Positions 1-36,631 of a stretch of DNA of 41,958 bases are shown piece by piece. This DNA comes from a bacterium (GTDB lineage Bacteria > Vulcanimicrobiota > Xenobia > Xenobiales > JADMJV01). The notes under the pieces were generated by a model. That model ran no database searches. It worked only from the letters and a program-made list of their open reading frames with translations, and had not been told where the DNA came from. Each line of letters starts with the position of its first letter. The stretch's first letter is position 1. A program made the position numbers and the translations under genes. The DNA lies in contig JASBRJ010000033.1 of NCBI GenBank assembly GCA_030149525.1, forward strand, positions 1 to 41,958, read 5' to 3'.

Positions 1-592
1 AAGCGGTGGCCCGAAAGACCGAGAGGAGAACAGCCACAGCGAGCACGGAGGTACAGAGGGCGAAGTCTGACCAGCCCGCCCCTGAGAGTTTTCCGGCTGT
101 CCAGTGAAGAAGTTCGAAAAGATCGGATTCCTTGAGGATGAGCAGGCCACTACTGGCGGAGCCAAAGAAAAACGCCAGAGTTAGGCCGGCTAGAATCAGA
201 CGCTCCCGCGGGAAGGCTCCTGAGGAGGTCATGAGGAGAATGGCCGTGCCGCTCGTAGCCCCTCCCACCAGAGCTGCCATGAGAATGGTGGTGGCCGAGA
301 CCGAACCGGCGAACAGAAGGACGACGACGACGGCGAAGACGGCGCTCTGGTTGATACCCAAAAGCTCCGGTTCGCTCAGGGGGTTTTGGGTGGCTAACTG
401 AAGCAGATTGCCGGCTAGCGCAAGGGCGGCCCCCAGGGCTACTCCCGTAAGGAAGCGAGGGAGTCTCACTTGATAAAGGGTGTACTGAGGATCCACCGAG
501 TCCGGTCCTATCGTCACCGAGAGAACAGCCAAGCCGACGAGGGCCAGGGTGCTTGCGACAAGAGAGGGCCAAAAGGAGGCCGCGCTGGTCAT
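1..592 (-). CDS. FecCD-type iron/siderophore ABC transporter permease (partial, C-terminus off the window)
   Basis: Reading the reverse strand from an ATG at 592 gives an open frame to the window edge (about 197 residues). It is very hydrophobic and has the FecCD-family region RLPRFLTGVALGAALALAG near residues 45-65, followed by NPLSEPELLGIN, the usual permease start. The family forms the inner-membrane channel that imports iron-siderophore complexes with a binding protein and an ATPase. Its ATG overlaps the TGA stop of the upstream binding-protein gene (ATGA at 589-592), so the two are translationally coupled. An ATPase gene would be expected just outside the window. The family call is firm; the substrate is inferred from the neighbour. 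Confidence 0.9.
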   Translation of the reverse strand, partial: MTSAASFWPSLVASTLALVGLAVLSVTIGPDSVDPQYTLYQVRLPRFLTGVALGAALALAGNLLQLATQNPLSEPELLGINQSAVFAVVVVLLFAGSVSATTILMAALVGGATSGTAILLMTSSGAFPRERLILAGLTLAFFFGSASSGLLILKESDLFELLHWTAGKLSGAGWSDFALCTSVLAVAVLLSVFRATA

Positions 593-2757
593 TGGCCCGT
601 GCTTTGGAGAGCGACTCCCTGGCTTTGTTTAAGGAAGTCGGCATACATTTCTAGAATTTTTTGAGCGGCGATGGGGCCTCGTGCTCGGGACCAGAGGTCT
701 CGATCAATGTGAAGAACCCTGTCCTCTTTGAAGGCTGTGAGTTGGGTGTAGAGGGGATGATCGTTCCAGCGCTTTGGGTCGCCGTAAACAAAGAGAAAGT
801 CCGGGTCGAGATCGGCAAGACCCTCCACCGTAATCTTGGCCACTTCAGTTTGGCTCTCAGAAGCGGACGGTGCCCCTTTAAAGAGGTAGTTGGCGCCCAC
901 ACTTTTGAAGAGAGAGCCGATGAACGACCCCTGTGTCCAGGTAGAAAATTCGTCTTCGAACGCGCCCACGACCAGAACCGTCGGTTGTCCGTCTTGAATT
1001 TCCCGCGTTGAAGAAAGAGAGTTCTGCAAACTCTCAGTGAGGGCTCTGCCCTGCTCCTTCTTGTCGGTGATGATCGCGAAAAGCTCCGTCATACTAACGA
1101 TATCTTCTAGGGAGTCGTCGGTGAGGGCGATGGTTGGAGCTATTGTTTCAAGTTGAGAGCGAATCATCTTGTGCCGGTCGGGATTCGCCACGATAAGGTC
1201 CGGCTCCAGCGAGAGTATCACTTCCAGATTGGGCTGCTTGCGTTCGCCCACGAAAAGAGGCGTCTCTCCGGGTATTTGGCCCTGGAGATAGACGGGAACG
1301 GTTTTTTCCGAGGTTCCTGCGAAACCCACCACAGGCTGCTGGAGTGCAGTGAGGCTGTCCAGAAAGGGGAGGTCCAGAACGACAATCCGTTGGGGCCTGG
1401 TCGGCACATCGGTGGCTCCCCAGGCGTGTTCTACTTTGGTAGAGGGGCCCTGAATGGCGATCGGATTTGGCGCGTTACCCGACTGGCATCCTGTGAGAAA
1501 GATAAAGGCGAAAACCGAAAGCAGAGCCGACGGCCTGATAATTTTCTGTCCCAGGGTTTTGGGAGGGAAGAGAAGACCCACCGAGACCAGGCATCCAAAT
1601 CCCATCGTGAAAACGGCGCTTCGAGGGTCGAACTGCTCGGCCACCAGGCCCACCAGCATCACGCCAAGGGGGATCAGGCCACGGTCCATAAGGGCAAGAC
1701 CCATCATCCTACCCGCCTTTTCGCGGGGCACGATATCTTGAAAAAGCATCCGTGAGGACGTCCGATAAGCTTGACCGAAAAAGCCCACGGCGAAGAGGAC
1801 GACCGCCGCGCTGAGGAAGCCTTTCACCTGGGAGAGGCCCACAAGGCTGATGCCGAAGAGCCCGGCATACAGGCGAGTGTAGTTCCAGTTGGAGGCACAC
1901 GGACGCATGGAGAGTTGTGAGGAGGCTAAAAGCGCTCCGGCTGCCGAGACGGCAAGGAGTGAGCCGAACTCCTCCGAGCCCAGTCCCAGCATGGAGTCGG
2001 TAACCAGGGGCAGCATCGCTGTGAACGGAAAACCGAAGAACATCACGGGAACGGCTAGAAAGATAAGTTTTCTGAGCTGAGGAAACTCTTTGAGAGTTTC
2101 GCGGAAAGAGAACTTGGCCTCACTTTTTTTGCTAGGTGAAGGCTCCTGATGCTCTTGCAACGGGGGCAGGGAGTTCAGTATCCAACTGTAGGCTGCCGTG
2201 GTGAAAGCTGCGGCCAGGAAAGTGGTCATGCTTCCGGTGGAGGCGAGCATGACACCCCCGAGAACGGGGCCCACGATTCGGCCGAGATTCATCACAGAGG
2301 CGTTCTGGGCGACCGCTTGCTTGAGGCGCTGACCCTCGAAAATGCTGCATAGAAGAGCGTTTCTAAACGGCCCCTCGGCGGCTGTGACGACAGCTCTCAA
2401 GAAGACCAGCGCGGCGCAGACCCCGAAAGGCAACTGGAGCCACAACGAAAGGCCGATTGCCAGAATAAAAAGCGTGTTCAGTCCATTGGCCAGCGTATTG
2501 AGCTTCTGGCGGTCGAAACGATCTGCCATCTGGCCGGCTGGAATCGAGAAGATAAGGTTCGGAAGCAGCCGACAAGTGTTGATGGCAGCGAGAAGCAACG
2601 CCGATTCTGTTTGCACGAAGACCACCCAATTGAGGGCAACAGTAAAGAGCCACTCGCCGATGCGGGCGGATAGAAATCCAGCGTTGTACCTAAGTAAGGT
2701 GTCCTTAAAGAGAAAGTTAGGCAAACCTAGCGGAGTATATTCAGTGACCCAAACCAT
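589..2757 (-). CDS. Fusion of an EntS-like MFS transporter and a FecB-like iron-siderophore binding protein
   Basis: One uninterrupted 722-residue frame. Residues 1 to about 400 are a 12-helix MFS transporter of the EntS/MFS_3 type, with the loop 2-3 signature GQMADRFDRQK at 75-85. Residues 408-424 form a hydrophobic stretch ending in a lipobox-like LTGC (Cys424). Residues 425-722 are a periplasmic binding protein of the FecB/BtuF class (PQRIVVLD near 455, LEPDLIVAN further on). In the family, MFS members of this type export siderophores, while FecB binds the iron-loaded form for import. The fusion topology is coherent: a cytoplasmic MFS C-terminus, then one helix that puts the binding domain outside. 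Alternatively these are two genes in one frame, the second starting at a non-ATG codon (a GTG at 1581 is available, with no strong ribosome site). It is coupled by ATGA to the permease gene. Confidence 0.85.
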   Translation of the reverse strand: MVWVTEYTPLGLPNFLFKDTLLRYNAGFLSARIGEWLFTVALNWVVFVQTESALLLAAINTCRLLPNLIFSIPAGQMADRFDRQKLNTLANGLNTLFILAIGLSLWLQLPFGVCAALVFLRAVVTAAEGPFRNALLCSIFEGQRLKQAVAQNASVMNLGRIVGPVLGGVMLASTGSMTTFLAAAFTTAAYSWILNSLPPLQEHQEPSPSKKSEAKFSFRETLKEFPQLRKLIFLAVPVMFFGFPFTAMLPLVTDSMLGLGSEEFGSLLAVSAAGALLASSQLSMRPCASNWNYTRLYAGLFGISLVGLSQVKGFLSAAVVLFAVGFFGQAYRTSSRMLFQDIVPREKAGRMMGLALMDRGLIPLGVMLVGLVAEQFDPRSAVFTMGFGCLVSVGLLFPPKTLGQKIIRPSALLSVFAFIFLTGCQSGNAPNPIAIQGPSTKVEHAWGATDVPTRPQRIVVLDLPFLDSLTALQQPVVGFAGTSEKTVPVYLQGQIPGETPLFVGERKQPNLEVILSLEPDLIVANPDRHKMIRSQLETIAPTIALTDDSLEDIVSMTELFAIITDKKEQGRALTESLQNSLSSTREIQDGQPTVLVVGAFEDEFSTWTQGSFIGSLFKSVGANYLFKGAPSASESQTEVAKITVEGLADLDPDFLFVYGDPKRWNDHPLYTQLTAFKEDRVLHIDRDLWSRARGPIAAQKILEMYADFLKQSQGVALQSTGQ

Positions 2758-2856
2758 GTCAATCGAAGTTGGTAAAAAAGATGTGAAATGTTCGGCTTAT
2801 TGCGTGTTTGGGTTTGGTTGTTGGGCGTCGCTGGAAAAACTTTTGCGGAGGCTGAC

Positions 2857-3420
2857 GTGAAAAAACTTGTTCTATTGTTGTTGCTCTGCTTGATCGCGAC
2901 CGGTGGTGCCAAGCAGACGACTATCCCCATCGGCGGAGATGTTCCTAACTTTGTCTTGACCGATCAGTCCGGTCAAAAAGTCGCCCTCTCCGAATTCAAA
3001 GGGCGAGGTGTCGTGGTGAGCTTTCTGTATACCCGGTGTCCTTATCCGGATAAGTGTCCGATGATCGGGAAGAAGCTGACAAGCTTGGCCGAACTGGGGA
3101 ATAAGCTCGGGCAATCCGATAAATTGCAAGTCATGGCTATCACGCTCGACCCCGCTCATGACAAGCCGGAAGTGCTCAAAGCCTACGCTCAAGGGTTTGA
3201 TAAGGACCACAGTAACTGGAGTTTCCTGACGGGGACGGAGCAGGAAATCGCCCGAGTGGCCGGTGCCTTCGGGGTGCTGTTTTGGGAAGAGAACGGTGTG
3301 ATTGAACATAATATGAGGACGGCTTTCATCGATCCCTCCGGTCGCCTTCGGCTCCTCAAGAGCGGCAGTGACTGGAAGGCCGGTGAGTTTGCCGCCCAGA
3401 TTCGCCCGTTTCTCAAATGA
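2857..3420 (+). CDS. Sco1/SenC-family thioredoxin-fold protein
   Basis: This exported protein has a hydrophobic signal segment (residues 3-14) and then a thioredoxin-like fold with GDVPNFVLTDQSGQ near 27-40. Family members carry copper to, or reduce, cytochrome oxidase Cu sites, or act as antioxidants. The metal/redox cysteines are Cys61 and Cys67 in CPYPDKC, a spacing of five residues rather than the classical three. The third ligand is probably His151 in IEHNMRTAFID. I chose the GTG at 2857 because GGAGG lies at 2847-2851; an ATG at 2788 would add 23 unlikely residues. It is divergent from the iron-uptake operon. No oxidase subunits are nearby, so the partner is unknown. Confidence 0.8.
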   Translation: MKKLVLLLLLCLIATGGAKQTTIPIGGDVPNFVLTDQSGQKVALSEFKGRGVVVSFLYTRCPYPDKCPMIGKKLTSLAELGNKLGQSDKLQVMAITLDPAHDKPEVLKAYAQGFDKDHSNWSFLTGTEQEIARVAGAFGVLFWEENGVIEHNMRTAFIDPSGRLRLLKSGSDWKAGEFAAQIRPFLK

Positions 3421-3531
3421 AGAAGCCCGTCTACTGCCAGGCGGGGGTTTCGTACTCATAGACCGGCTGTTTCTCCCACAGAGAGCAGGGATGTTTCCCT
3501 TTTTCTTGGAAACTTCGCCCTGAGGCGACCC

Positions 3532-3951
3532 ATGAAAGTTGATTCCCAGGTTCGAGCAAAGGACAGTACCCAACTCCTTGTAGGAGGGGGATGCTTAGTG
3601 TCCGTACCACTGGCCATTGGATTCGTATTCAAGTACTTGCTGGGATACGCCAAAGCCAAGGAGCATCAGTTCGCTCACCAGGTGGAAGAAGTGGAGTTGG
3701 AGGGGGAGGCGGCTATGCTCGCCGAGGAGGCCCATAGTACCAAGGAAGCGGTGCTTCGATTCTCCAAAAAACTCGACCGCATCACCGAACAGTACTCCAA
3801 AATGGGCGGCCGGTTCAGTCCCGACGACTTCGAGGCGGAAAAGAAACGCCTGGATAGGTTGCGGGAGCGACTGGCCAAAGAAGAAAAAGATCCCGAATCA
3901 GCGAGTCTGTTAGACAAGGCTCAGCGGCAACTTCAGCAGTACGCCCCTTGA
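3532..3951 (+). CDS. Small single-pass membrane protein with coiled coil, unknown function
   Basis: I do not recognise a family. The 139-residue product has one hydrophobic segment (about residues 14-37, LLVGGGCLVSVPLAIGFVFKYLL), then a Lys/Glu-rich region predicted by eye to be alpha-helical coiled coil (about 45-135, many heptad-like E/K/L patterns). GAGG precedes the ATG at 3532. Its last codons overlap the TTG start of the next gene (3948-3951), so the two are likely co-translated. The layout, membrane anchor plus cytoplasmic or periplasmic coil, suggests an envelope-associated structural role; this is inference. Confidence 0.7.
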   Translation: MKVDSQVRAKDSTQLLVGGGCLVSVPLAIGFVFKYLLGYAKAKEHQFAHQVEEVELEGEAAMLAEEAHSTKEAVLRFSKKLDRITEQYSKMGGRFSPDDFEAEKKRLDRLRERLAKEEKDPESASLLDKAQRQLQQYAP

Positions 3952-4472
3952 GCCGAACCTCGCCCAACCGCTTTGCCGCAGTCTTGGTCCTGTGCCTTCT
4001 TTTTCTCGTTCTGTTGACTCCGGCCGTTTGTCAGGTCCGAACCTTCAAGACATCCGACGATAGGCTGAGTCTCAAAACCGACGAGGAGTTTGAGAGCACC
4101 TTCAATCCTCACGCTCTTCTCAGTCTGCAAACGCCGGAAAAATCGGTTGTGATCGTGACTCGAAAGAAGAAAGAGTTCACTATCACCGAACTCTACGACG
4201 GCATCCCCTCCACTTTTACCGACGGAGTGGTCTGCCAGGGGCGAGTTTTGCTCGCTATCGACGGCGAAGAGGCTCCCGCCTTTCTCGTTGAGGGGATGTT
4301 TCCCCCGGAAGAACCCACCCACCACACCCTGTTCGTGGTGGTCAATCACGAGAAGTTCGAATACACCCTGATGATCCACTATCCGGAAGAGATGGGGGAT
4401 GCGGGATTCGAGTGGGCCACGGGTTTGCTGCAGAAATTTCAATGGAATGACGCATCAAGCAGGAATTCATAG
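3948..4472 (+). CDS. Secreted or envelope protein, unknown function
   Basis: The 174-residue product starts at a TTG that overlaps the preceding stop. It has a clear signal peptide (about residues 9-28, AAVLVLCLLFLVLLTPAVCQ) and a mature region that alternates short hydrophobic strands with charged residues, consistent with a beta-rich extracytoplasmic domain. The Cys at the end of the hydrophobic core could be a lipobox (TPAVC is atypical) or just part of the signal. No catalytic motif was recognised. It is co-transcribed with the coiled-coil membrane gene ahead of it, so both may act in the envelope. Confidence 0.7.
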   Translation: MSRTSPNRFAAVLVLCLLFLVLLTPAVCQVRTFKTSDDRLSLKTDEEFESTFNPHALLSLQTPEKSVVIVTRKKKEFTITELYDGIPSTFTDGVVCQGRVLLAIDGEEAPAFLVEGMFPPEEPTHHTLFVVVNHEKFEYTLMIHYPEEMGDAGFEWATGLLQKFQWNDASSRNS

Positions 4473-4549
4473 TAGTTGCGTACTAATAAGCTAATCTGGG
4501 CAGCCTGTCTGGCTTGCTCGGATGTATATCATCACTTTCGGGGGTCATC

Positions 4550-4780
4550 ATGACAAGAATACATCCTATTCATCCGAATCATCGGCCCACGGCGACCGTT
4601 GTATCAGGATCTTCACAAGAAGCGACGGAGCCTTCTGGAGAGCGCAAGGCGCTGACCGGCAGAAGTTCTGCTCAACGTGTCAATGAACTTTTGCGAGCTT
4701 TCAGCGACACTGCCTACTCTATTGAAGAGGAAGAACATTCCTGGGAATCTTGGAATTATAGCCGCTTGTCGGCATTCTGA
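4550..4780 (+). CDS. Small hypothetical protein
   Basis: A 76-residue frame starting at ATG 4550 after a purine-rich GGGGG. The N-terminus (MTRIHPIHPNHRP) is basic and proline/histidine-rich, the middle is Ser/Thr/Gly-rich, and the C-terminus has an acidic aromatic stretch (EEEEHSWESWNY). No family recognised. It stands as a monocistronic unit followed by a strong terminator at 4794-4831, which supports a real transcript. The start style resembles three other proteins in this window (25968, 32536, 36631). Confidence 0.55.
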   Translation: MTRIHPIHPNHRPTATVVSGSSQEATEPSGERKALTGRSSAQRVNELLRAFSDTAYSIEEEEHSWESWNYSRLSAF

Positions 4781-4793
4781 CAGGGATTGAATG

Positions 4794-4831
4794 AAAAAGC
4801 CTCGATCTTTCTCAGGTCGAGGCTTTTTTTT
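4794..4831 (+). terminator. Rho-independent terminator
   Basis: Twelve-base stem AAAAAGCCTCGA / TCGAGGCTTTTT with an 11-base loop and an eight-T tail (4824-4831). It ends the small gene at 4550-4780. The T tract touches the ATG of the next gene at 4832, and the 3' stem arm holds CGAGG, the only Shine-Dalgarno-like sequence for that gene. Confidence 0.9.
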
Positions 4832-5986
4832 ATGATTGAACTGAAAACAACCCAACAAGCACGGGACTTTATTCAAGGGGACAACTTCCAGCCTGCAGCG
4901 TATCGCGATCTGGACCTGACCGACTTTACCAAAGAGATCCTGGATCGCGATTTCGGCGCCAGTCTTTTTCTCGGTTGCGAGCTGGAGGGAGAGGCCATCT
5001 GTCATCTCGCCCAGGGTGGTGCTTATCTCATTCATGATATGGACGGGTTCTCGTTTCCCGTTCACCGAGCCCGACTGTATACTCCTGAGGAACTTTTTCA
5101 CGGTCTTGAGATGGACCGTCTCTCTTCTCGATACGATACCCTCGATCATAAGATTTTTGAGGAATATCTGCAGTCAGGTCGAGAGCAGGGGGATTCCATC
5201 AAGGTGACTCTGGCTCGCCGGCTGCACGACCACAGCATTACCCAGGCGCTCTATCCCGAGTTAGAGGGGCGAGAGGTGGCAGCCATCATGGGCGGGCACG
5301 GCCTAGAGCGAGCCAGTGCCGAGTACAGGAAAGTGGCACAGATTGCCAGGCGACTTACTGCAGAGGGATTTCTGTTGGTGAGCGGAGGCGGCCCGGGAGC
5401 CATGGAGGCTTGTCATTTAGGAGCCTTTTTCGCCACTCGCTCGGAAGATGTCATGTTGGAAGCCATCGACGCCATGTCGATTCGTCCCGAGAACGGCAAA
5501 CCCGGTAAGGAGTATGCTGATGAAGATTGGCTTCACAGGGCATGGAGGGTCAGGCAAGATTATCCCGTTCCTCAGGGTGATGAGGAGAAGTGCAAGAGTA
5601 TCGGTATACCGACCTGGACTTACGGCCACGAGCCGCCCGCTGTCTTCGCGACCCATATCGCTAAATACTTTGCCAACAGTGTTCGCGAAGACGGTCTTCT
5701 TCTGATTGCGACTCACGGTGTGATTTTTGCTCCCGGAAGCGCGGGCACCATCCAAGAAATTTTTCAAGATGCTTGTCAGAACCATTATCTGGTGGCCGAA
5801 GGTCAGTGTTCTCCCATGATATTGTTGGGAAGGGATTACTGGACCAGGACCAAGCCGGTGTGGTCTCTGCTGTCCAAGCTTGCTGAGGAACAGCCTTACG
5901 GCGAGCTTCTTTGTCTTACTGATAGCATCGATACGGTGGTGAGAAGGCTGCTTTGCTATCGTCCGGATCTCTACACGTTCAGCTGA
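4832..5986 (+). CDS. LOG-family Rossmann protein (nucleotide 5'-monophosphate nucleosidase-like)
   Basis: The 384-residue protein has a C-terminal LOG/lysine-decarboxylase-like Rossmann domain with the two family motifs: GGGPGAMEA at residues 185-193 and PGSAGTIQE at 301-309 (family consensus PGGxGTxxE). Known LOG enzymes remove ribose-5-phosphate from nucleotides. The protein is about twice the length of plant-type LOG and has an extra N-terminal region of about 140 residues, as in longer bacterial relatives. I chose the ATG at 4832; a TTG at 4787 would put 15 codons through the terminator hairpin. Substrate not determinable from sequence. The methyltransferase gene begins 11 bases downstream. 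Confidence 0.8.
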   Translation: MIELKTTQQARDFIQGDNFQPAAYRDLDLTDFTKEILDRDFGASLFLGCELEGEAICHLAQGGAYLIHDMDGFSFPVHRARLYTPEELFHGLEMDRLSSRYDTLDHKIFEEYLQSGREQGDSIKVTLARRLHDHSITQALYPELEGREVAAIMGGHGLERASAEYRKVAQIARRLTAEGFLLVSGGGPGAMEACHLGAFFATRSEDVMLEAIDAMSIRPENGKPGKEYADEDWLHRAWRVRQDYPVPQGDEEKCKSIGIPTWTYGHEPPAVFATHIAKYFANSVREDGLLLIATHGVIFAPGSAGTIQEIFQDACQNHYLVAEGQCSPMILLGRDYWTRTKPVWSLLSKLAEEQPYGELLCLTDSIDTVVRRLLCYRPDLYTFS

Positions 5987-5997
5987 AGTCTCCTGGA

Positions 5998-6795
5998 ATG
6001 CCAAGTCATGAGCAAAACTACCAGATTTGGAACAACTCCTACGACTGGAGCCGCTATCAGGGCGATGAGTGGTCGGCCAAGTGGGGCGGAACGGATATGC
6101 AATGGTACTGGACGATCTATCCAAGGATTCGATACCATTTGCCCGCCCAAACTATCCTTGATATCGGGCCCGGCCAGGGTCGCTGGACCCGTTATCTTTT
6201 GCAGCATTGTGACAACATGGTGCTGGTGGACTTGTCGGAGAAGTGCATCAACGCTTGCCGGCGGAGGTTTGGAGAAGACAGAGTCCTCTACAAAGTCGGC
6301 TCGGGGGATTCCATCGATTTCTTGGAGGATGAATCCATCGATTTTGCCTTCAGTTGGGAGACGCTGGTCTATGCTGAAATTGAGGCCGTCCGAGGATACC
6401 TGGAGGGACTGGCCCGAAAACTGAAGCCCGACGGGCGAGCTTTTCTTCACCATTCCAACTTGGCGTCCTATTCAGCCTACTTCGATCTCACGATTAAGAT
6501 GCCCAAAAGACTCCGAGACTTTCTCAAGACCAGAGGTTTGCTGGATTACGACCAATGGAGAGCCAGAAGCGTTACAGCGGAGCTTTTCGCTCGGTGTGCC
6601 GAAGAAGTTGGACTACGGGTGACCACTCAGGAACTGATCCCCTGGGGGGGTCGAAGACTGATAGATTGCTTCACAACGCTGACCCGCTCTTCGGGAGGCG
6701 CCTCACCCCGGTTCAAAAAGAACCCCAACTACCACACGCGCGCCTATCATATACAGGAATTATCCTGGTTGTACGGCGAGGGCGTGCCCTGGTAG
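5998..6795 (+). CDS. Class I SAM-dependent methyltransferase
   Basis: The 265-residue protein has a Rossmann methyltransferase fold: motif I ILDIGPGQGRW at residues 53-63, acidic motif II VLVDLS (Asp78), and a later DFAFSWETLVY region in the motif IV position. The enzyme would transfer a methyl group from S-adenosylmethionine, but the acceptor cannot be read from the sequence. The N-terminal YQIWNNSYDWS resembles methyltransferases of surface polysaccharide or glycolipid clusters; that is only suggestive here. It starts 11 bases after the LOG gene and is probably co-transcribed with it. The ATG at 5998 is preferred over a longer form from 5953 inside the LOG gene. Confidence 0.8.
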   Translation: MPSHEQNYQIWNNSYDWSRYQGDEWSAKWGGTDMQWYWTIYPRIRYHLPAQTILDIGPGQGRWTRYLLQHCDNMVLVDLSEKCINACRRRFGEDRVLYKVGSGDSIDFLEDESIDFAFSWETLVYAEIEAVRGYLEGLARKLKPDGRAFLHHSNLASYSAYFDLTIKMPKRLRDFLKTRGLLDYDQWRARSVTAELFARCAEEVGLRVTTQELIPWGGRRLIDCFTTLTRSSGGASPRFKKNPNYHTRAYHIQELSWLYGEGVPW

Positions 6796-6830
6796 AGGTT
6801 TTCGACTTCTGAACACAAACTCAAGCCCTT

Positions 6831-7199
6831 ATGCCCGAAAGACGCGATTCGGTGAGTTCTCAACCCTTCGACTACGAAGCCACCCTGGACAGGGTTAAGG
6901 GAAAAGTTTCGCTTATCCAGCGTCTGGTTAACACGTTTTTGCGAACCTCCGACCCCATCTTGGAGAATCTCAAGAAGGCCGTCGTTGAGAGCGATTTTCA
7001 GGAAGTCTACCGTCTGGCTCATTCTCTTCGGGGAGCCTGCCTGAATTTCAACGCCTTTCCGGCGGCCCGGCGTGCGGAAGTGATTGAGCAACAAGGACTG
7101 GAGCGAGATTTGAGCAACGTGGACGAAAATCTTCAGGCCTTCGAATGCGAATACGCCAGGCTGAAAGAAGCGCTACAAGGAGTTTTGGAACCAGAGTGA
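6831..7199 (+). CDS. Histidine phosphotransfer (HPt) domain protein
   Basis: The 122-residue protein is essentially one HPt four-helix domain. The phosphorylatable histidine is His64 in LAHSLRGACLNF, matching the HPt consensus HxLKGxxxxxG. HPt proteins relay phosphate between receiver domains of hybrid sensor kinases and response regulators. No histidine kinase or receiver is encoded in the window, so its partners lie elsewhere. The stop overlaps the GTG start of the aminotransferase (GTGA at 7196-7199), an unexpected pairing of a phosphorelay protein with a metabolic enzyme. Confidence 0.8.
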   Translation: MPERRDSVSSQPFDYEATLDRVKGKVSLIQRLVNTFLRTSDPILENLKKAVVESDFQEVYRLAHSLRGACLNFNAFPAARRAEVIEQQGLERDLSNVDENLQAFECEYARLKEALQGVLEPE

Positions 7200-8446
7200 C
7201 CGCAGAATCTATCCCAGGGATCCGACAAGTCCCACGAACCGGTGTAATCTTCGTCATGCACGAGGCTGCGAAAGAAGGTTTTGTCTACGGACATCCTGAG
7301 TGGGCCAATTTGGGTCAGGGTTCTCCTGAAACAGGTGACCTACCCGGGGCTCCACCACGAATAAAAGAGATCTCCATCGAGCCGGCTCGTCACTCCTACG
7401 GCCCGGTGGAGGGCGCCCTCGACCTTCGCCAAAAGGTCGCTGACTTTTACAATGAAGTTTTTCGTAAGGGCAAGAAAAGCCAGTATACCTATAAAAATGT
7501 GAGTTTGGCCGGGGGCGGTCGTACCGCGCTGACCAGGCTGGCGGCTTCTATCGACGCCTGTAATATCGGTCACTTTATTCCCGACTACACGGCCTATGAA
7601 GAACTCCTGGCAAACTTTCGTTCCTTCATCCCGATTCCGATTCTGCTGGATAGAGAACAGGGCTATCGTATCAGCCTGGAGACCTTGGAAAAAGAGATTG
7701 CAGGTCGGGGCCTTCGCCTTGTCCTGTTATCCAATCCGTGCAATCCCACCGGCCAAGTGATTCAAGGGCAAGAGCTGAAAAGTTGGGTCGACCTGGGGCG
7801 AGAAAACTCTTGTACCTTTGTCTTCGATGAGTTCTACTCTCGATTTCTCTACACCGGTGAACCGGGAGAAGCTGTTTCGGCGGCTGAGTTTGTGGAAGAT
7901 GTGGAGACGGACCCTGTTGTCTTGGTCGACGGCTTAACGAAAAACTGGCGCTATCCCGGTTGGAGACTTTCCTGGACTTTGGGGCCCAGCAAAGTGATTG
8001 AGGCTATCGCCAGCGCAGGCTCGTTTCTCGACGGCGGGGCCAACAATCCGCTCCAGGCTCAGGCTCACATTTTGCTCGATCCCGAACGGGCCAAGCAAGA
8101 ATCGGTGGCCATCAGCAAGCATTTTCGCTTGAAGCGAGACTTTGTCGTCAATAGGCTGAAATCGATGGGCGTTCGTTTGGCCTCCAAGCCCCAAGGAGCC
8201 TTTTATGTGTGGGCCGACCTGAGCGATTTGCCTCCCTCCATTCGTAAAGGTATCGACTTCTTCCGAGCGGGACTCCAGGAAAAGGTTATCACCGTGCCGG
8301 GAGTCTTCTTCGACGTGAATCCCGGCCGTCGTCGCGCCCATTCGCGTTTTGCCAATCTCTGTCGGGTCTCATACGGTCCTCCGATGGAGTCTCTAGAGTT
8401 GGGAATGAACGCCCTGCAACGAGTTATCGAGAAAGCAACTCAATAG
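7196..8446 (+). CDS. PLP-dependent aminotransferase, class I/II
   Basis: The 416-residue protein has the fold type I motifs in order: SNPCNPTGQV (about 179-188), FDEFYSRF (210-217, the PLP-ring Asp and Tyr), the Schiff-base Lys249 in GLTKNWRYPGWRLSW, and a C-terminal Arg in the RFANLCRVSYG region for the substrate carboxylate. It catalyses amino-group transfer from an amino acid to a keto acid; specificity is not evident. The GTG at 7196 overlaps the HPt stop and has AAGGAG about 12 bases upstream. The last 23 bases overlap the 3' end of the convergent GAF gene. Confidence 0.85.
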   Translation: MTAESIPGIRQVPRTGVIFVMHEAAKEGFVYGHPEWANLGQGSPETGDLPGAPPRIKEISIEPARHSYGPVEGALDLRQKVADFYNEVFRKGKKSQYTYKNVSLAGGGRTALTRLAASIDACNIGHFIPDYTAYEELLANFRSFIPIPILLDREQGYRISLETLEKEIAGRGLRLVLLSNPCNPTGQVIQGQELKSWVDLGRENSCTFVFDEFYSRFLYTGEPGEAVSAAEFVEDVETDPVVLVDGLTKNWRYPGWRLSWTLGPSKVIEAIASAGSFLDGGANNPLQAQAHILLDPERAKQESVAISKHFRLKRDFVVNRLKSMGVRLASKPQGAFYVWADLSDLPPSIRKGIDFFRAGLQEKVITVPGVFFDVNPGRRRAHSRFANLCRVSYGPPMESLELGMNALQRVIEKATQ

Positions 8447-11234
8447 GATTTAACTCGGCCTTAAAGCCGTCTTCCGAAGCGAATAGTTTGACGCGGGAAA
8501 TCTTGGCCGGGAAGTATCCCTTTTTCTGAACGCGTACACTGACTAGCGGGGGTTCGTCCCCGGCGAAGTTTCCACTGTAGAAATACTGAGTCTCCTGATC
8601 CTTGAGTTGCAACACGACACGCATATTCTGAGAGGGAAAGAAAAGGATCACCTCCACCGGATCATGGGAGTTCAGGTCCTCTCCTTCCACGAACACTTCG
8701 CCTGAGATCGTCACCGGAGTGAGGTAGGTGGTGTCGTCTCCCTGGAAGGGCCAGAAGAACTTCCAAGCACGCTTGATGAAGGACGGCTTTGACTTTTTGC
8801 GGCCGGGGTCGGTGGAGCCGGTCTGGGGGGCTCTGGCTACGGTCTCTTCCGAGGGAAAATCGTAGGAGTCTTCCTCCTCGAGTTCAGGTGCGGCAGTGGA
8901 GCTTTCGTCGGGCTTCGATGGGGCCTGGGGAGGATCCGGTTTGAGGAGCGATTTTAGGATATCGTCGTCAGGGAGCGGCTTCTTTTTCTGAAGTGGGCTT
9001 TCCGACTTTAGAAGATTCTGAAGAATGTCGGGTTCGGAGGGTTCTTCTTTGAGTTTGCCCAGCTTGGCAGAGATATCCTGGACCGAATGGGGTAGATCGG
9101 GGGAAAGGAAGAGCGCCTCCGCCGAGTCGGCTTCGGAACTTTCGAACTCCGGCTCAATCTCTCTTGAAGGCTCCTCGTCCGACCTTGAGCCCACCCCGGG
9201 ATCAAGGGAGTGGGGCTCAGCAACCGGTTCGGGCTCTACCAGGCTTTCCGTGGGAAGCGTTGGCTTGAGCTCCGGCGCTGTTGCAGTCTCCATGTTCGTC
9301 TCGGGATCGACGTCTTCGTGATTGTGAGGAGCAGGTTGCACGCTAGATGGTGAGACGCTCTCCAAGTCCGGTTCGAGTTGCGCCAAAGACTCGACTTGCA
9401 AAGACGGCTCCATTTCCGGGAAATCGGCCAGCGGGTCGTCCGTCTCAAAGTCGCCGAAGAGCGTGTCGTCGGCCTGGGGAACCATCTGTTCGCCATCCTC
9501 GAATTCCTCAGGCTCTAGATCGGCTGGGGTGAGTGAGGCGATGAGTTCCTCCGGTGTCGGTGTACGGTCCTCACCCCAGGAGGAGACTTCCTGATGCCGA
9601 TCCGGCGGTTCGAAGCTCATGCCGGCCGGCTTGACCTCTTCCAAGGACTCCTCCGACTCTTCGTCGGACGGTGAGTTCAACTCTTCCTTCTCTTTGCGCA
9701 TGGCGTCGCGAAGAGCGATAGCGGCTTCCAAGGTAACCTCTATGGTGGAGTCGGAGGTCATTTCTTCGAGCGCTTCTCGATCTCGCGCCAGCATGTCCTC
9801 GTCGATATCTACCGGTGGAATAAGGTCCTCGGTGGTATCCAGCAGAGCTTCTAGACTGGAAATCTCTTCCTCAAGTTCTCTTTCCACGGTGATGACGTCG
9901 GAGTCGTCGCTCTCTTGTGCTGCGGTCTCGGAGGCGTCGTCGTTGGGGAAGAGCGATTGAGGATCGTTAGCAGCTATTTCACTGAAGGAGAGAGAGTCGC
10001 CTGAATCGGGCTGGTAGGGAGGGGTCTCCGGTATTGCAAAGGCTTTCTCTGTTTTTTCCGCTTGCAGAGCCTCGGCTTCCTTTTTCTCCTGATCGGCCTT
10101 GGTAAAATAACTGCCCACCACGTCCAGTAGGCTCTCCAGATCGTCGTCGGGATAATCTTCGAACTCGTTGGGTTGGGGAGATGCCTCCAGTTCGCGCTCT
10201 AGTTCCAGAACCGGCTCCCCGGAGGGAGGAGACGTTGGCTCTGAATCGAGGGCCTGTTCCGTGTCTGGCTCAAGCTGTGTTGCCGGCTCGATTTCCGTTG
10301 CCGGCTCAGAGAATTCTATCGGTTCAGGGACCGACTCCGGCTCCATGGATTCCAGGGACGGGAGCGTCGATTCGGCATCGGTCGCTTCGTTGGGCCCGTC
10401 GATGCTGAGAAGCCACGCCAGTTCGTTTTCAAGCGAACCTGCCAGCCTTTCCAGTATCAACAGCTCGGAACCGTCAAAAAGGTTGGGAGTTGTTGGTGAG
10501 TCTAACAGTATCAATCCTTGGACGGACCCGTTGGAGGCTTTCAGTGGGCAGCAGGCAACAGAGCGAGACTCGCCTGGGGGAGGCTGTTCGATTCCCAGTT
10601 CCCTCCACTCTTCTTCTGCTTGGGCATCCTGGAGGAATGAGGCTCTCTTAAGGCCGATGAGTGACTCGAGCATGACGTTTGTGATGCCTGGGGCAGGAGT
10701 GAAAGGTTCGTCCTTCTGTCTCTGAGCGGCCAGGCTGGTGAGATTTCCGTCGTGTCTAGCGAAGATACTGGCCCTCTCCGGTTTCAAGACTCGAAGAATA
10801 ATATCCAAAGTGGCTCGGGCCGATTTTTTGGCTTTATCTAGAGATTGCCCGGCAGGTTGAGGGCGCTTTTGGTGGTTGGTTCGTTCCTCGATCTGCTTTC
10901 GCAACTTTTGCAAGATGGCATAGTCAATGTTCTTGAGTCGTCGAGGGGCTTTCACCTCAAGGTACATCACGCCGTCGACCGCCCCGCCTCCGTCGAGGTA
11001 AGGCACGGCCAAAATGCCCAATTCTTTATTGGATTCGGAGAAGGGCTCGCCGGATTCAACGACTCTACCCACGACCTTGGGATTGGGTTTTCGCTTTTGC
11101 TCGGCAGGCTCGGCGGCAAAGACTACAGCGTCTCCCGGACCGCAAACAACGGCGGCGAAGTCTGGCTGGAGCGCCTGAACCATTCGCTTGAGAAGCGCGC
11201 GTTCAAATTTTCCGCTGCTCTTCAAGAAGCCCAC
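8424..11234 (-). CDS. GAF-domain protein with long acidic linker and C-terminal beta domain
   Basis: A 936-residue protein from a GTG at 11234. Residues 1-120 resemble a GAF sensory domain (AVPYLDGGGAVDGVMYLEVKA), and about 130-275 a second one (SVACCPLKASNGSVQGLILLDS). About 500 residues follow that are extremely rich in Glu, Asp, Ser and Pro and have almost no hydrophobic core. Near DNA 8935-9035 there are two copies of a short motif, DILQNLLKSE and DILKSLLKPD. The last 110 or so residues (after a basic KKSKPSFIKRAWKFFWPF patch) look like a beta-sandwich. GAF domains sense small molecules or serve dimerisation; no output enzyme is present, so it may be a scaffold. Function unknown. Confidence 0.75.
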   Translation of the reverse strand: MGFLKSSGKFERALLKRMVQALQPDFAAVVCGPGDAVVFAAEPAEQKRKPNPKVVGRVVESGEPFSESNKELGILAVPYLDGGGAVDGVMYLEVKAPRRLKNIDYAILQKLRKQIEERTNHQKRPQPAGQSLDKAKKSARATLDIILRVLKPERASIFARHDGNLTSLAAQRQKDEPFTPAPGITNVMLESLIGLKRASFLQDAQAEEEWRELGIEQPPPGESRSVACCPLKASNGSVQGLILLDSPTTPNLFDGSELLILERLAGSLENELAWLLSIDGPNEATDAESTLPSLESMEPESVPEPIEFSEPATEIEPATQLEPDTEQALDSEPTSPPSGEPVLELERELEASPQPNEFEDYPDDDLESLLDVVGSYFTKADQEKKEAEALQAEKTEKAFAIPETPPYQPDSGDSLSFSEIAANDPQSLFPNDDASETAAQESDDSDVITVERELEEEISSLEALLDTTEDLIPPVDIDEDMLARDREALEEMTSDSTIEVTLEAAIALRDAMRKEKEELNSPSDEESEESLEEVKPAGMSFEPPDRHQEVSSWGEDRTPTPEELIASLTPADLEPEEFEDGEQMVPQADDTLFGDFETDDPLADFPEMEPSLQVESLAQLEPDLESVSPSSVQPAPHNHEDVDPETNMETATAPELKPTLPTESLVEPEPVAEPHSLDPGVGSRSDEEPSREIEPEFESSEADSAEALFLSPDLPHSVQDISAKLGKLKEEPSEPDILQNLLKSESPLQKKKPLPDDDILKSLLKPDPPQAPSKPDESSTAAPELEEEDSYDFPSEETVARAPQTGSTDPGRKKSKPSFIKRAWKFFWPFQGDDTTYLTPVTISGEVFVEGEDLNSHDPVEVILFFPSQNMRVVLQLKDQETQYFYSGNFAGDEPPLVSVRVQKKGYFPAKISRVKLFASEDGFKAELNPIELLSR

Positions 11235-23730: not shown

Positions 23731-23913
23731 TTGGAAGAGGCGTTCTTTACCTGTCCTCACTGTTGGGAGACAGTCAGCATTCTGGTGGATATCAGTCTTG
23801 ACGGTCGTCATCGATTTGTTGAGGATTGCGAAGTTTGCTGCAATCCTATCGATTTTGTCGCCCTGGTTACGGAGCATTCCGTGACAAATCTGGAGGCGAA
23901 TCCCGCTCAATGA
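23731..23913 (+). CDS. CPXCG-motif cysteine-rich small protein
   Basis: A 60-residue protein from TTG 23731, preceded by GAGGGG just after the PilZ stop. It has the CPXCG family pattern: FTCPHCWETVSILVDIS (first CxxC) and VEDCEVCCNPIDF (second). This is a compact zinc ribbon of unknown function and normal family length. Its stop overlaps the kinase ATG (ATGA, 23910-23913), so the kinase is translated by coupling. Confidence 0.75.
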   Translation: MEEAFFTCPHCWETVSILVDISLDGRHRFVEDCEVCCNPIDFVALVTEHSVTNLEANPAQ

Positions 23914-25883
23914 ATCTTCAACCCGGCGTCATTCTGGATAACCGATACGAGCTGTTGGAACTTCTCGGCGAAGGTGGCATGGGTCAGGTCTTTAAGGCGC
24001 GCCACAAACGACTGGGCAAGCTTTTTGCCGTGAAGTCTCTGCGGAACTTGTCTCCGGATCCTCATGAGCAAGCCAAGTTTCTCGATGCCTTTGAGTCGGA
24101 AGCTCGCACGCTGGCGGAGCTGGATCACCGGGCCCTGGCGAAGGTGAGCGATTTCTTTGAAATGGGCAACATCCATTTTCTCGTCATGGAGTTTATCGAC
24201 GGAAAAACGCTGGCCCGTGTGGTGGAATTGGCCCCTCGAAATCTGTCCCAGCGCCGGGTTTGTCAGTGGGCGGAAGAACTGAGCCAGGTTTTGGCCTACT
24301 TGCATAGTCGCAAGCCTCCGGTGATCGTTCGAGATCTGAAGCCGGAGAACATCATGATCGACAGCAAGCGCAGGCTTCGCTTGATCGACTTCGGCATCTC
24401 CAAACGGCTTAAGCCTGGGGAGGGAACTCACGACATCGTCAAGGGGATGGGGACGGCTGAGTATGCGCCTTTGGAACAGTACGGTAATAGCAGCACCGAT
24501 CAGCGTTCCGATATTTATGCTTTGGGCGCCACACTCTACTTTCTTTTGACCGAGATCGCTCCACCGCCCGCCTGGAAAAGAGCCTCCGAAGGCACCGAGC
24601 CGATCCCTCCATCCCAGGTCAATCCCTCGGTCACTCCTGAATTCGAAGCACTGGTGCTTTCCATGATGGCTCTTCGCCGGGAGGACCGCCCTCAAACAAT
24701 CGAGACAGTGATCCAACAGCTGGGCCGAGTGACGAAAGAGGCCGTTCAATCTCCATCCGCGCCTCCAGCGGTACGGCCTCCAATGGCTCGACCCGTGACC
24801 CCTCCGGTCCAGCAGCCCGCACCAAGGACTCCGGCCCAGGTGACGCCTTCGGCGGTTTATGAAAGCCCGTCCGCCGGAGAATCTCACCGATACGGGATGC
24901 CCGGCTCCTCTCTAGACCGTCCGAAAATGGCCGTGAAGCCCACAGTGACCGGTCGCGTCCCCCAGGTTCGGGTAGTGAGTTGCAAGAGCCTCAGGCGCTA
25001 CGCAACCATCCCTCAGGCCGTGAAAACCTGCCCCGGCAAGCCGCTGGTGGCGGTGGCCGGGCGCTATCTCCAGATGTGGAGTTTGGAGACGGAGCAGATG
25101 GAGTCGAAACTTTGGTCGGGTGAGCAGCAGATGACTACGGTGGACTTCTCTTCCGATGGTCGGCTGCTCTTTGCCGGTGAGTTGGAAGGCAAGATCCGCC
25201 AATACGAGGCTGCTACGGGCGCCAAGCGTGAAACTTTGGGGAGACGGAGTTGGGGTTTGTTTCCCGACCGCGTTAGGGATATCGCCTGTCTCTACGGTCA
25301 GTCAAAGGTGGCCGTGGCCTCCGATGCATCCAACATTCGTATCTTTGATGCCGGGTCGGGGAAGGTGGTGAAAACCCTGGATTGGCATCAAACGAGTCTG
25401 CTTTCAAAGTGGAGTAAGAAGACTCTGAGTCTTGCCGCCTCAAGAGACGGCTCACTTGCCTCGGGTGGTGCCGGCGGTTCGATCTGTGTCTACGGCAAGG
25501 GCGACCAGGAGGTGCTTTTTCGGCAGTCTGTCGGCAAGGGCGATATCATTGCTCTTGAGTTCAGTGCCGACGGCCAGTTTTTGGCCGCTGCCGACTCGCG
25601 GGGGTCCGTCTTCATTCTCAAGAGCCCCGATTTTTCCACAGTTCACGAGCTGAAACATCCCTCCACCCCCAACGCCGTGACTTTCTCTCATGACCTTCGT
25701 ATCGTCGCCACCGGGTCGGCCGATTGCCAGATCAGGCTGTTTCATCTCCCCACCGGGAAAGAGTTGTTGACTTTGAGCCACCATACGGGTGGGGTTCATG
25801 ATTTGGACTTCGACGATGTGCTCCCCAAGTTAGTGTCGGTGGGCAACGATCGCCGCCTTTATCTCACTCATCTCGCCTGGTAG
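23910..25883 (+). CDS. Ser/Thr protein kinase with C-terminal WD40 repeats
   Basis: The 657-residue protein has an N-terminal PknB-type kinase domain (about 12-275): G-loop LGEGGMGQV (19-27), Lys42 in AVKSL, catalytic loop VRDLKPEN (140-147) in which Val replaces the His of HRD, DFG at 160-162, and APLEQY in place of APE. A Pro-rich linker (about 285-345) is followed by WD40 repeats from about 365 to the end (SPDGRLL, SADGQFLAAADS, DLRIVATGSADCQIRLF). There is no transmembrane helix, so it is cytosolic. WD40 repeats probably recruit substrates or sense state. The gene is coupled to CPXCG by overlap. Confidence 0.9.
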   Translation: MNLQPGVILDNRYELLELLGEGGMGQVFKARHKRLGKLFAVKSLRNLSPDPHEQAKFLDAFESEARTLAELDHRALAKVSDFFEMGNIHFLVMEFIDGKTLARVVELAPRNLSQRRVCQWAEELSQVLAYLHSRKPPVIVRDLKPENIMIDSKRRLRLIDFGISKRLKPGEGTHDIVKGMGTAEYAPLEQYGNSSTDQRSDIYALGATLYFLLTEIAPPPAWKRASEGTEPIPPSQVNPSVTPEFEALVLSMMALRREDRPQTIETVIQQLGRVTKEAVQSPSAPPAVRPPMARPVTPPVQQPAPRTPAQVTPSAVYESPSAGESHRYGMPGSSLDRPKMAVKPTVTGRVPQVRVVSCKSLRRYATIPQAVKTCPGKPLVAVAGRYLQMWSLETEQMESKLWSGEQQMTTVDFSSDGRLLFAGELEGKIRQYEAATGAKRETLGRRSWGLFPDRVRDIACLYGQSKVAVASDASNIRIFDAGSGKVVKTLDWHQTSLLSKWSKKTLSLAASRDGSLASGGAGGSICVYGKGDQEVLFRQSVGKGDIIALEFSADGQFLAAADSRGSVFILKSPDFSTVHELKHPSTPNAVTFSHDLRIVATGSADCQIRLFHLPTGKELLTLSHHTGGVHDLDFDDVLPKLVSVGNDRRLYLTHLAW

Positions 25884-33013: not shown

Positions 33014-36000
33014 CTAAACAAAATTCAAATCAACCCTCTGCTGCCCACTCAACCCCTCAAAATGAACCTCATACCGAACCAACCCATCCTTTCCAGGCTT
33101 CTCCTTGATGGAGTAAGGCGGGCAGTTTTCGCCTTTGACAGGTCGTTTGCCGCGGGGGAGCGGGGGAGTTTCTAGGACGAGTTCGGGGACGGCGTCGAAG
33201 TTGCCGTCCAGGTTGAAGCGGTAGCTTTCCTGGTCTTTTTTGTAGTCGTGGGTGACTTCCCATTCGTGGGCGCTGCCGGGGTTGGTGAACTTCATGGAGA
33301 CGGGACCCTGTTGAGTGCCTTCGGGGAGGTGGGGGATGATGTCCATTCTGGTGGGGACGCCGGCATCACGATGGAGGCGAACTCCGCCGACCACCTCGAT
33401 CATGGCCCAGGGCACGGTGGCGTTGGTCCAGCCGAAGCCGGGGCCTTCACCTTGAGTTTCCTCGTAGCGACCTTTTTGCACCGGGGGATGCCCACCCTTA
33501 ACCACGTCGTAGCGCTCGAGAATGATTCCGTCTTCGGAGTGGACCTTGTCGATGGTGTCCAACCATTTCTGAGTGTGGCGAGCGGCGGCGTCATGGCGGC
33601 CGAACTGCACTTCTGACTCGATGGCCATCATGTGGAGAGGCGCCCAGCCACTTGGGCCGTTCCACTGCATCTCGGGATGTCCGTAGTCTTCGGCGGTGGC
33701 GGCCAAGCCGTGATCTTTTTCGAAGAGAGAGATGTTGTCGAGGCTGCGCTCGATCATTTCCTTCTCTTTGGGGTCGTTGGGGTCGAGCATGCCAACCCAC
33801 AAAGGAGCGACTACGGCCGAGAGGGCGTCCTCGTCTTTTTGCAGACCCTGATTCTCACCCTGAAATCGATAGTCGCGGAACATTCCGCTCTCTTCGTCCC
33901 AGCAGTGCTTGATAACATCATGCTTGATCTGCTTGGCTTCGTTGCCCCAGAAAGCACCCTCGCTGCTGTATTTGAGAAAGTCTTTCTGGTTGCCCTCTTC
34001 TTGAGCTTTGTCGCGAAGACGGAGAGCGATCGCCTCCATGTCTCTGGAATATCCCCACAGGAAGGCGTTGAGGTCTGGGGGCGCCAGGTCCATGGTCTTC
34101 CCGTAGAAGCGAGACGTTGTATCGAACCCCGACTCATCCATGGCGAACTTGTGGTTGGGGCCGCCCCACCGAGACAGGTGAACCTTCTCACCGTTGATTT
34201 CGCCCACATTGCGGCCGCCGTCTTCCCGCCAGAAATCATGGAAGTCGGAAGACATCACGTCGTAGGCTTCTTTGACCCACTTTTCCGTGGCTTTGTCGCC
34301 GAAGGTTCGTTTGCGGATCGGCTCCGACATACGGACCAGCGATGGTAAGAACGGGGGCTGAGACTTGTTCAGATAGACAGAGCGAGCGGCGTTGGGGACG
34401 CGACCGGTGCTCTTCAAGAGATAGAGCAGATTGTCGGTCATCCCGGAAACGGTCTCTTCCTGGCCCTGGAGTTGCATACCCTTGGCCATGAACATGGTGT
34501 CCCAGTTGAATTGGGTCTTGAAAATGCCAAGGCTTGGTACGGCGGCGGGGTTGAAGTACTGCATCGCCGTGTCGTGGTCTTTGACGGACGGCTCGATGGT
34601 AAGCGGCTTCCAGTTCTCGCCGATCTTGTTGTAGAGCTTGGTCCAGCCGGGGCGACCCTCTACGCCGTTCACTTCACTCCTAGGCCCGGTTTTGATGGAT
34701 ATCCAATCACGGTTGGCGTGATAGAAGCTTTCCAGTTGGGGGTTGCCTCCGGCCATGTGGAAGGCGCCCAGGATGTCCTTGGGGATGTCCACCTTTTCCG
34801 GATCGGTAAATTGGTCCAATCCGTAGGCTTTGTCCCCGAAAACGAGGTGATCGTCGGTTTTGGTGACGTTGAGCTCCTGACCGTTGCGGCGAAGTTTGAA
34901 GGCGTTTTCGCCCAGTTTGGCCGCCTCTATGCCGGGCATATTCAGCGCTAGTTCGGTGGAGCCGAGTTTGAGGCTGTCACCCTCTAGAGGTTGATACCGC
35001 AGCTCTTGAGGTTGTGCCGGCTTGACCTCACCGTTGTCAAAATCAATACCTAGAAAGACCTTGTCCAGGCCCTTTTCCTTCAGTTCGCGGATCACCGGCA
35101 GAGAGACCAGACTCTTGTCCATCTGGCGCAGGCGTCTGTCTAGCGCACTAGCCTCACGAACATTGACTTTGGGAGTTTCCGTTTGTCCCAGATTGCCCGC
35201 CGCCTGGCGAAGGCGAGAGAGGCCTTTGGGAGAGACCCACGCTTCCAAGCCTTCTTCGCTTTCCTTAGCAGGGGTTGTCGGAGCCTCCAGCAGGGCCCTG
35301 GTGGAGAGGCCCACAGTGGAAGTGTCGTCGGAGGAGAGAGCCAGTTTGGCCGCATGGTTAAGCTTCTGGGCTTCCGCCTTGAAGCCGTACTTTTCCAGCC
35401 CCTGGGCAAACCCTAAGAGATCGCGTGACTGGGCGGGCGTGTCGGCCTTACGGTCCCAAACGGCTGTCCCGTCGGGCTGCAAGAATTGCCGTGTCGAGGA
35501 GGCCAGCCGTGTGGCCATGGCCATCTCTTTAGGATTGTTTGGGTCCAAGAGTCCGGCTTCCAACACGGCCAGAGAGGCCAGGGTTTTCACCTGGGAACGT
35601 TGTCCGTCGGCCACTTTCAAGTCGTGAAAAAGGCCGCTTTTCTCATCCCACATCTTGTCCAGAATGGTGGCTTTGCGTTGAGACGCCTTGTCGCCCCACT
35701 CTTTGGCCTTCTTGGTCCATGAACTGTCCTTGGTGCGAACCGCCATCTTGAGAGCCATACTTTGCAGATCCCGCTCGGTTCGATAGAGATGAGCATTCAG
35801 ATCCACGGGGTTGAACGGCATGGGGTCGCCGTCGTAGCGAGCTTTGTTCTTGGCTCCCCCGGACTCTTCGAGAGTAGCGTCGTGAGAGTAGTCCACATCG
35901 CAGAAGCGATTCAGACCGTTCTTGCTCTGTTTGAAGTATCCGTCGGACCAACTGTGCTTGTGGTCGTCGGCGATCACTTGGTAAGAGCGCTGAAGAAATT

Positions 36001-36631
36001 CAGGGTCCTCGTGGCGATTCGCTTCTTCTAGAAGCAAAGAGGAAAGGCGGGGCATTCCCGCCCGGCCTAAATCGTTGAGTTGGTTGGTTCCGGGGAGAGC
36101 GGTGTACTTCTCACCAAGGGCCAGCCAGTTTTCCAGCACTCCACGAGCCTGGGCGTGACCCCCTTTGGCCCTCAATCCCCGTACCACAACGTCAACGTCG
36201 TTTTGCTCCATGCGACCGTTGCTGTCGCCGGGATAGGGGAACGGCACGTCGATCTTGTCGGGATGGTACTCCGGGGTGAAGGTGAGATTCTTCGACCAAT
36301 CGTCTCGCTCTTGGCCTTCGAAAACAGAGAGAAACTTCTCGGTGTGGAGAGTTTCCGGCCGCAGCAGAGGTGAAAGCGCGGGAACCGCAACCTTAGGACG
36401 TTGCTGGGTGAGAGTGGCCGGAGGAGCCGACGACTCTCCGGATCGTCCGGCTTCGTTGGTCCCTGTATCGGTCTTTTGAGATTCCAGAGACTTGAGTTTG
36501 GCGGCCAGGACCCTTTTGTCCACCGGATCCTTCGGCGCCTCAACTTTTTTCTTTTCAATAGCTGGGGTGGGCGCTTTGAATTTCTTAACAGGCGTAAAGA
36601 CGACCCGGTCTACTTCGTTGTTAATTTTCAT
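33014..36631 (-). CDS. GH37 trehalase-like protein with duplicated (inactive) N-terminal half
   Basis: A 1205-residue protein. The second half (about residues 655-1105) carries the GH37 trehalase signatures: FKTQFNWDTMF, MDESGFDTTSRF (catalytic acid Asp), MQWNGPSGWAP, LERYDV (catalytic base Glu) and GPGFGWTNATVPWA. The first half (about 85-455) repeats parts of the same helical barrel (VDLNAHLYRTERD versus PDLNAFLWGYSRD; MWDEKSGLFHD versus CWDEESGMFRD), but ESGFD becomes ESGGA and the WD block is missing, so it is probably non-catalytic. No signal peptide; the first 70 residues are basic, Pro/Lys-rich. The C-terminus (about 1110-1205) is beta-rich. ATG 36631 has GGAG six bases upstream; a GTG at 36643 would overlap that site. 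Trehalase hydrolyses trehalose to glucose. Confidence 0.85.
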   Translation of the reverse strand: MKINNEVDRVVFTPVKKFKAPTPAIEKKKVEAPKDPVDKRVLAAKLKSLESQKTDTGTNEAGRSGESSAPPATLTQQRPKVAVPALSPLLRPETLHTEKFLSVFEGQERDDWSKNLTFTPEYHPDKIDVPFPYPGDSNGRMEQNDVDVVVRGLRAKGGHAQARGVLENWLALGEKYTALPGTNQLNDLGRAGMPRLSSLLLEEANRHEDPEFLQRSYQVIADDHKHSWSDGYFKQSKNGLNRFCDVDYSHDATLEESGGAKNKARYDGDPMPFNPVDLNAHLYRTERDLQSMALKMAVRTKDSSWTKKAKEWGDKASQRKATILDKMWDEKSGLFHDLKVADGQRSQVKTLASLAVLEAGLLDPNNPKEMAMATRLASSTRQFLQPDGTAVWDRKADTPAQSRDLLGFAQGLEKYGFKAEAQKLNHAAKLALSSDDTSTVGLSTRALLEAPTTPAKESEEGLEAWVSPKGLSRLRQAAGNLGQTETPKVNVREASALDRRLRQMDKSLVSLPVIRELKEKGLDKVFLGIDFDNGEVKPAQPQELRYQPLEGDSLKLGSTELALNMPGIEAAKLGENAFKLRRNGQELNVTKTDDHLVFGDKAYGLDQFTDPEKVDIPKDILGAFHMAGGNPQLESFYHANRDWISIKTGPRSEVNGVEGRPGWTKLYNKIGENWKPLTIEPSVKDHDTAMQYFNPAAVPSLGIFKTQFNWDTMFMAKGMQLQGQEETVSGMTDNLLYLLKSTGRVPNAARSVYLNKSQPPFLPSLVRMSEPIRKRTFGDKATEKWVKEAYDVMSSDFHDFWREDGGRNVGEINGEKVHLSRWGGPNHKFAMDESGFDTTSRFYGKTMDLAPPDLNAFLWGYSRDMEAIALRLRDKAQEEGNQKDFLKYSSEGAFWGNEAKQIKHDVIKHCWDEESGMFRDYRFQGENQGLQKDEDALSAVVAPLWVGMLDPNDPKEKEMIERSLDNISLFEKDHGLAATAEDYGHPEMQWNGPSGWAPLHMMAIESEVQFGRHDAAARHTQKWLDTIDKVHSEDGIILERYDVVKGGHPPVQKGRYEETQGEGPGFGWTNATVPWAMIEVVGGVRLHRDAGVPTRMDIIPHLPEGTQQGPVSMKFTNPGSAHEWEVTHDYKKDQESYRFNLDGNFDAVPELVLETPPLPRGKRPVKGENCPPYSIKEKPGKDGLVRYEVHFEGLSGQQRVDLNFV

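Follow-up and report, generated by a model that had tools for sequence, protein, structure and literature searches.

The window, as we call the whole 41,958 nt stretch analysed, has near its start a large open reading frame on the minus strand, running from 2757 to 589. It has 722 codons and no internal stops, and would code for a protein of about 78.7 kDa. Pfam assigns residues 27–393 to MFS_1 (E 2.5e-27) and MFS_3 (E 1.7e-26), and residues 479–687 to Peripla_BP_2 (E 2.4e-17, 63.6 bits for a cut-off of 27.5). The original prediction was that a single frame joins a transporter to a siderophore-binding domain, and this is what we find: The frame is uninterrupted and both domains are complete. 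The features at the locus are as follows:

589..2757, minus strand: fused open reading frame, 722 codons from the ATG at 2757, or about 711 from the TTG at 2724
1558..2700, minus strand: MFS exporter half, residues 20–400, with 12 TM helices and the SfaA-like motif MDRGLIPLG (from Pfam, the tree and the helices of the model)
1486..1560, minus strand: junction K400–C424, with a positive n-region, a 15-residue helix and the lipobox LTGC, similar to a type II signal peptide
619..1440, minus strand: siderophore-binding half, residues 440–713, HtsA/FecB-like (from Pfam, the model and Foldseek)
2734..2762, minus strand: promoter-like pair TTGACA-17-TATACT, 11/12 matches (one found, 0.6 expected in shuffled sequences)
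2722..2724, minus strand: TTG of residue 12, right past the -10 element, probably the true start codon
2712..2730, no strand assigned: DtxR/IdeR-box-like palindrome, 14/19 matches, second best (tied) in 105 kb of this genome
2..592, minus strand: FecC-type permease, cut by the contig end and completed by contig C379 through a 20-base overlap

The -35 box of the promoter-like pair overlaps the ATG at 2757, so the TTG at 2724 is the likelier start. It lies a few bases past the expected start of transcription, and the product would then have about 711 amino acids. The operon of NIS synthetases found on contig C174 of the same genome has the same near-leaderless layout as the fusion read from this TTG. 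No Rfam RNA elements are found in positions 1–9000 of the window. A SCO1/SenC-like gene (2788–3420, plus strand) is divergent from the fusion and begins about 30 bases away from it. The window also contains a serine/threonine kinase domain fused to a WD40 propeller (23826–25883, plus strand) and a 1209 amino acid protein that matches trehalase and MGH1-like glycoside hydrolase (33014–36643, minus strand).

The stop codon of the fusion shares bases with the ATG (592) of a FecCD permease, so that the fusion lies directly upstream of an import permease, as predicted. The window is one complete contig (C132), whose end cuts the permease. Contig C379 starts with the part of the permease that is missing in the window: When the two contigs are joined by their 20 shared bases, a single open permease frame is obtained. 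This join is based on the overlap and on the continuity of the frame. After FecC, C379 codes for a second permease and a FecE-type ATPase. Next come a regulator of the DtxR family, which has DNA-binding, dimerisation and FeoA domains, and an aldo/keto reductase. The order in the operon is fusion, FecC, FecD, FecE and DtxR-family regulator. Both the SBP-FecC-FecD-FecE order and the stop/start overlap between SBP and FecC are those of FecBCDE-type import operons. On the other hand, the SBP has here an N-terminal exporter, and the operon closes with a regulator of the DtxR family. The same contig (L071) contains a gene coding for a very long acidic low-complexity repeat of the ELED type (8828–10840, minus strand), directly upstream of another binding-protein-like lipoprotein gene (8001–8831).

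The operon is probably regulated by iron. We have scored 105 kb of sequence from this genome against TTAGGTTAGSCTAACCTAA, the IdeR/DtxR box consensus. The best DtxR-box-like site (15/19) is found just upstream of the pair of NIS genes, and the second best (14/19, tied with one more) at the promoter of the fusion. A third site (14/19, L071 3888–3906) lies near a small glycine/methionine-rich ORF. The fusion operon thus has a box-like site at its promoter and a DtxR-family gene among its members, as in a DtxR-regulated iron operon. Since box-like sites are found at both promoters and a DtxR-family gene ends the operon, the sequences suggest that the fusion operon and the NIS pair may form a single iron-responsive regulon.

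The two NIS synthetases on C174 are adjacent, with the NIS2-NIS1 order of Bacilli loci. Among named NCBIfam models, rhizoferrin FslA and staphyloferrin B SbnF come closest to them, both with scores far below cut-off. There is no transporter gene beside this pair, and C174 is not linked to the fusion in the assembly: The fusion adjoins importer genes instead.

In several Bacilli genomes, among 399 sampled, both halves are found as separate genes within single loci. The gene order is SBP-NIS-NIS-MFS in two of these loci (L202, L203), racemase-SBP-FecC-FecD-MFS with adjoining NIS genes in L204 and SBP-FecC-FecD-MFS in L205, while four others have NIS-NIS-MFS (L209, L211, L212, L213). Staphylococci have the same gene pair in their staphyloferrin A locus, in the places of sfaA and htsA, whose roles have been described in the literature (PMC12709192). 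At the gene level, these relatives place both halves in one siderophore system.

The transporter had been described as an EntS-like protein with 12 helices. The helices stand: Pfam gives a MFS_3-type fold, and the top matches of the structure model are MFS proteins. The EntS label should be replaced, SfaA-like fits better: The NCBIfam EntS model (PRK10489) gives 68.5 bits for a cut-off of 324, and the exporter half also falls below the curated cut-off of TIGR00900. SfaA, the MFS exporter of staphyloferrin A, is of the same MFS_3 type. The exporter half is 34–43% identical to exporters of Bacilli NIS loci, and 29–33% identical to the products of the staphylococcal genes at the SfaA position. 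In the tree, it is placed together with a paralogue from its own genome inside the Bacilli NIS-locus exporters (support 99/98), while the rest of the MFS proteins of the phylum fall apart from them. The tree tool warns that the grouping of the exporter half with this paralogue may be a long-branch effect. The paralogue (C232:2711-3826; L044 2600-3871, minus strand) is a second SfaA-like MFS, 37–38% identical to the fused exporter. It has no adjoining iron gene and could either serve as a backup or be the original exporter.

The binding domain had been described as FecB-like. The siderophore-binding fold is found, although it is closest to both HtsA and FecB, not to FecB alone. The NCBIfam FecB model (PRK11411) gives 136.7 bits, below its cut-off of 320. 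The two halves were modelled separately because a joint alignment misaligned exporter and receptor rows; the model of the receptor half has a mean pLDDT of 90.6. Its best solved match in Foldseek is HtsA with staphyloferrin A (3li2, E 4.5e-26, TM about 0.83), followed by the Vibrio FecB with citrate and by YfiY with schizokinen. Residues R506, R528, R686, R691 and R693 align with R104, R126, R299, R304 and R306 of HtsA, five arginines of its carboxylate pocket. The alignment shows no equivalent of HtsA R86. In HtsA, R104 and R126 are ligand contacts (PMC10553834). The structural match to HtsA and the five equivalent arginines point to a citrate-based, carboxylate siderophore as the probable ligand. 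Identity to HtsA itself is only 26–28%, compared with 38–47% for the receptors of Bacilli NIS loci. In the tree, the receptor half falls within a clade of receptors from Bacilli, most of them belonging to NIS loci (support 99/98). Both halves have long branches in their trees. No close relative of the receptor half has been found elsewhere in the phylum (149 genomes, E 1e-10). Judging from these sequence comparisons, gene transfer into the host followed by fusion would fit best.

The junction preserves the ends of both proteins. SfaA and its Bacilli relatives are separate proteins which end about 6 residues past TM12, whereas the fused chain continues into the receptor. Alignment with the separate orthologues shows that the exporter part is homologous in frame through the end of TM12 (MGFGCLVSVGLLF vs MGAGCIAVTLLIL). 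The receptor part lacks a free N-terminus and its own start codon, unlike HtsA, but it keeps the positive stretch, the 15-residue helix and the lipobox at the position found in orthologues: LTGC (residues 421–424, ending at Cys424), compared with LSGC, LAGC or MSGC. A short hydrophobic segment followed by the pattern [LVI][ASTVI][GAS]C is thus present at the junction, and the lipoprotein signal segment is internal, after TM12, rather than N-terminal. MFS proteins have 12 helices with the N-terminus inside. TM12 would therefore end inside, and the thirteenth helix would point outward and carry the receptor to the outside of the membrane. Both the lipobox-like helix and an orientation suitable for an anchored binding domain are as predicted.

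We consider, with a probability of about 75%, that this is a real fusion: a SfaA-like exporter and a HtsA/FecB-like receptor, both from one NIS carboxylate-type siderophore system, which head an iron-regulated import operon. The case is based on a single draft assembly, with no second fusion in the genomes searched. Further points against it are that the NIS pair is found on another contig, that the direction of transport by the exporter half is a prediction, that the second SfaA-like MFS could be the real exporter and that each half has a long branch.

The original prediction also mentioned two overlapping in-frame genes, with the receptor made separately. Starts for such a gene do exist, as ATG385 and GTG393 are in frame inside TM12. 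The rest of this proposal fares worse: Neither has a ribosome site (-0.2 and -3.4 kcal/mol, with an internal background mean of -3.0). This is not decisive, since many genes in this genome have no Shine-Dalgarno sequence; a ribosome site of -6 kcal/mol or lower lies near the start in about half of those examined. A frame shared in a comparable way, by an AraC regulator and a binding protein, is found in a Paenibacillus genome, where there is a strong internal ribosome site. In our case, however, a product started at ATG385 would bear a TM12 segment ahead of the signal helix, and, as the exporter part does not end in a stop codon, the read-through product would still be made. We consider separate production of the receptor unlikely.

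An even less probable explanation is an artefact of sequencing or assembly, in which two normal neighbours were joined by a base error or by the loss of intervening DNA. The assembly is a draft in 398 contigs, the exporter and receptor genes of Bacilli relatives are separated by other genes, and a single substitution at codon 400, 403, 404 or 405 would create a stop. Such a stop would not be enough. From residue 394, past the exporter, up to the lipobox there is no in-frame ATG, GTG or TTG and hence no canonical start, so no single base error would provide both the exporter stop and the canonical receptor start that two normal genes would need. Insertions or deletions do not help: The other two frames, with their nearest downstream stops at residues 427 and 442, contain no pair of start and stop codons from which a single insertion or deletion would make two normal genes. 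The junction is in frame, with the end of the exporter and the receptor lipobox both intact, and no run of at least 13 bases at the junction recurs in the stretches of the same genome that were checked.

Export of something else by the MFS half, a drug or a metabolite, its joining to the receptor having no functional meaning, is the least probable explanation: The substrate of a MFS protein cannot be read from its sequence, and this one falls below the EntS and TIGR00900 curated cut-offs, but its clade belongs to NIS-siderophore loci, most of the members examined adjoin NIS synthetases or FecCD genes, and a DtxR-box-like site is found at its promoter.

The same fusion in relatives had been proposed as a check of the prediction, and none has been found, so conservation cannot be used as a test. 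A search of about 1,070 genomes, in which two large sets were scored for top candidates only, has detected no second fusion, and none of 58 genomes from its own phylum has one. The wide searches took the two best candidates per genome, in Bacilli, the phylum itself and one further phylum (through a record labelled Chloroflexi). In 72,556 plasmid records, no place covers 80% of the protein, and a first scan of genome contigs with a single query (P0001) gave no match. The fusion may well exist in other genomes.

Several candidates were discarded. A match in a Shinella plasmid, spanning residues 324–703, resembled a second fusion but runs into a TonB-dependent receptor gene by chance. The 559 amino acid exporter frame in L204 has its extra length upstream of the exporter and not in a receptor. 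Long frames around MFS matches in the phylum (L034–L040) have no receptor match beside the MFS. The 658 amino acid frame in Paenibacillus (L100) is not a MFS fusion: This stop-to-stop frame (Paenibacillus sp. S150, about 3440–4505) combines an AraC-type regulator with a binding protein, a FecB-like lipoprotein, and contains a strong ribosome site ahead of an internal GTG. It may correspond to two in-frame genes or to a membrane-anchored sensor.

Returning to the fusion of exporter and receptor, its chain would most likely be synthesised as one precursor. The siderophore made by the NIS pair on C174 would leave the cytoplasm through the MFS half. As the junction helix would span the membrane with its N-terminus inside, the binding half would face outward, capture the ferric siderophore and hand it to FecCDE. 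The only TonB-dependent receptor plug domain found in this 8.3-Mb genome is a weak match (C267:39722-39994, E 3.1e-7).

Exporter and receptor would thus be made as one chain, probably either as a tethered export-and-recapture unit or as a polyprotein matured by Lgt and LspA at its internal lipobox. LspA is encoded in this genome. Lipidation of Cys424 and cutting there by LspA, which would give exporter and lipoprotein in a 1:1 ratio from one chain, has somewhat less than even odds; permanent tethering of exporter and receptor is a more doubtful possibility. We lean slightly towards cutting because the receptor has retained its own lipobox and short helix. No description of an exporter–receptor fusion, tethered or as a polyprotein, appears in the literature searched, which left out most subscription journals. 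The GlnPQ and OpuA types are ABC importers with permease-fused binding domains, so that a binding domain is likewise tethered to a membrane transporter. In these cases it is fused to the importer that it serves, whereas here it is fused to an exporter of another superfamily.

In summary, the fusion joins both ends of the journey of a siderophore, export and recapture, which are separate proteins in every other system we have compared. By association, it lends support to the role assigned to SfaA-like exporters. If cutting occurs, the protein would offer a clean test of whether a lipobox inside a polytopic protein can be matured by lipoprotein signal peptidase. If exporter and receptor remain tethered, nature would provide a test of the benefit of having the two side by side, for example in siderophore privatisation.
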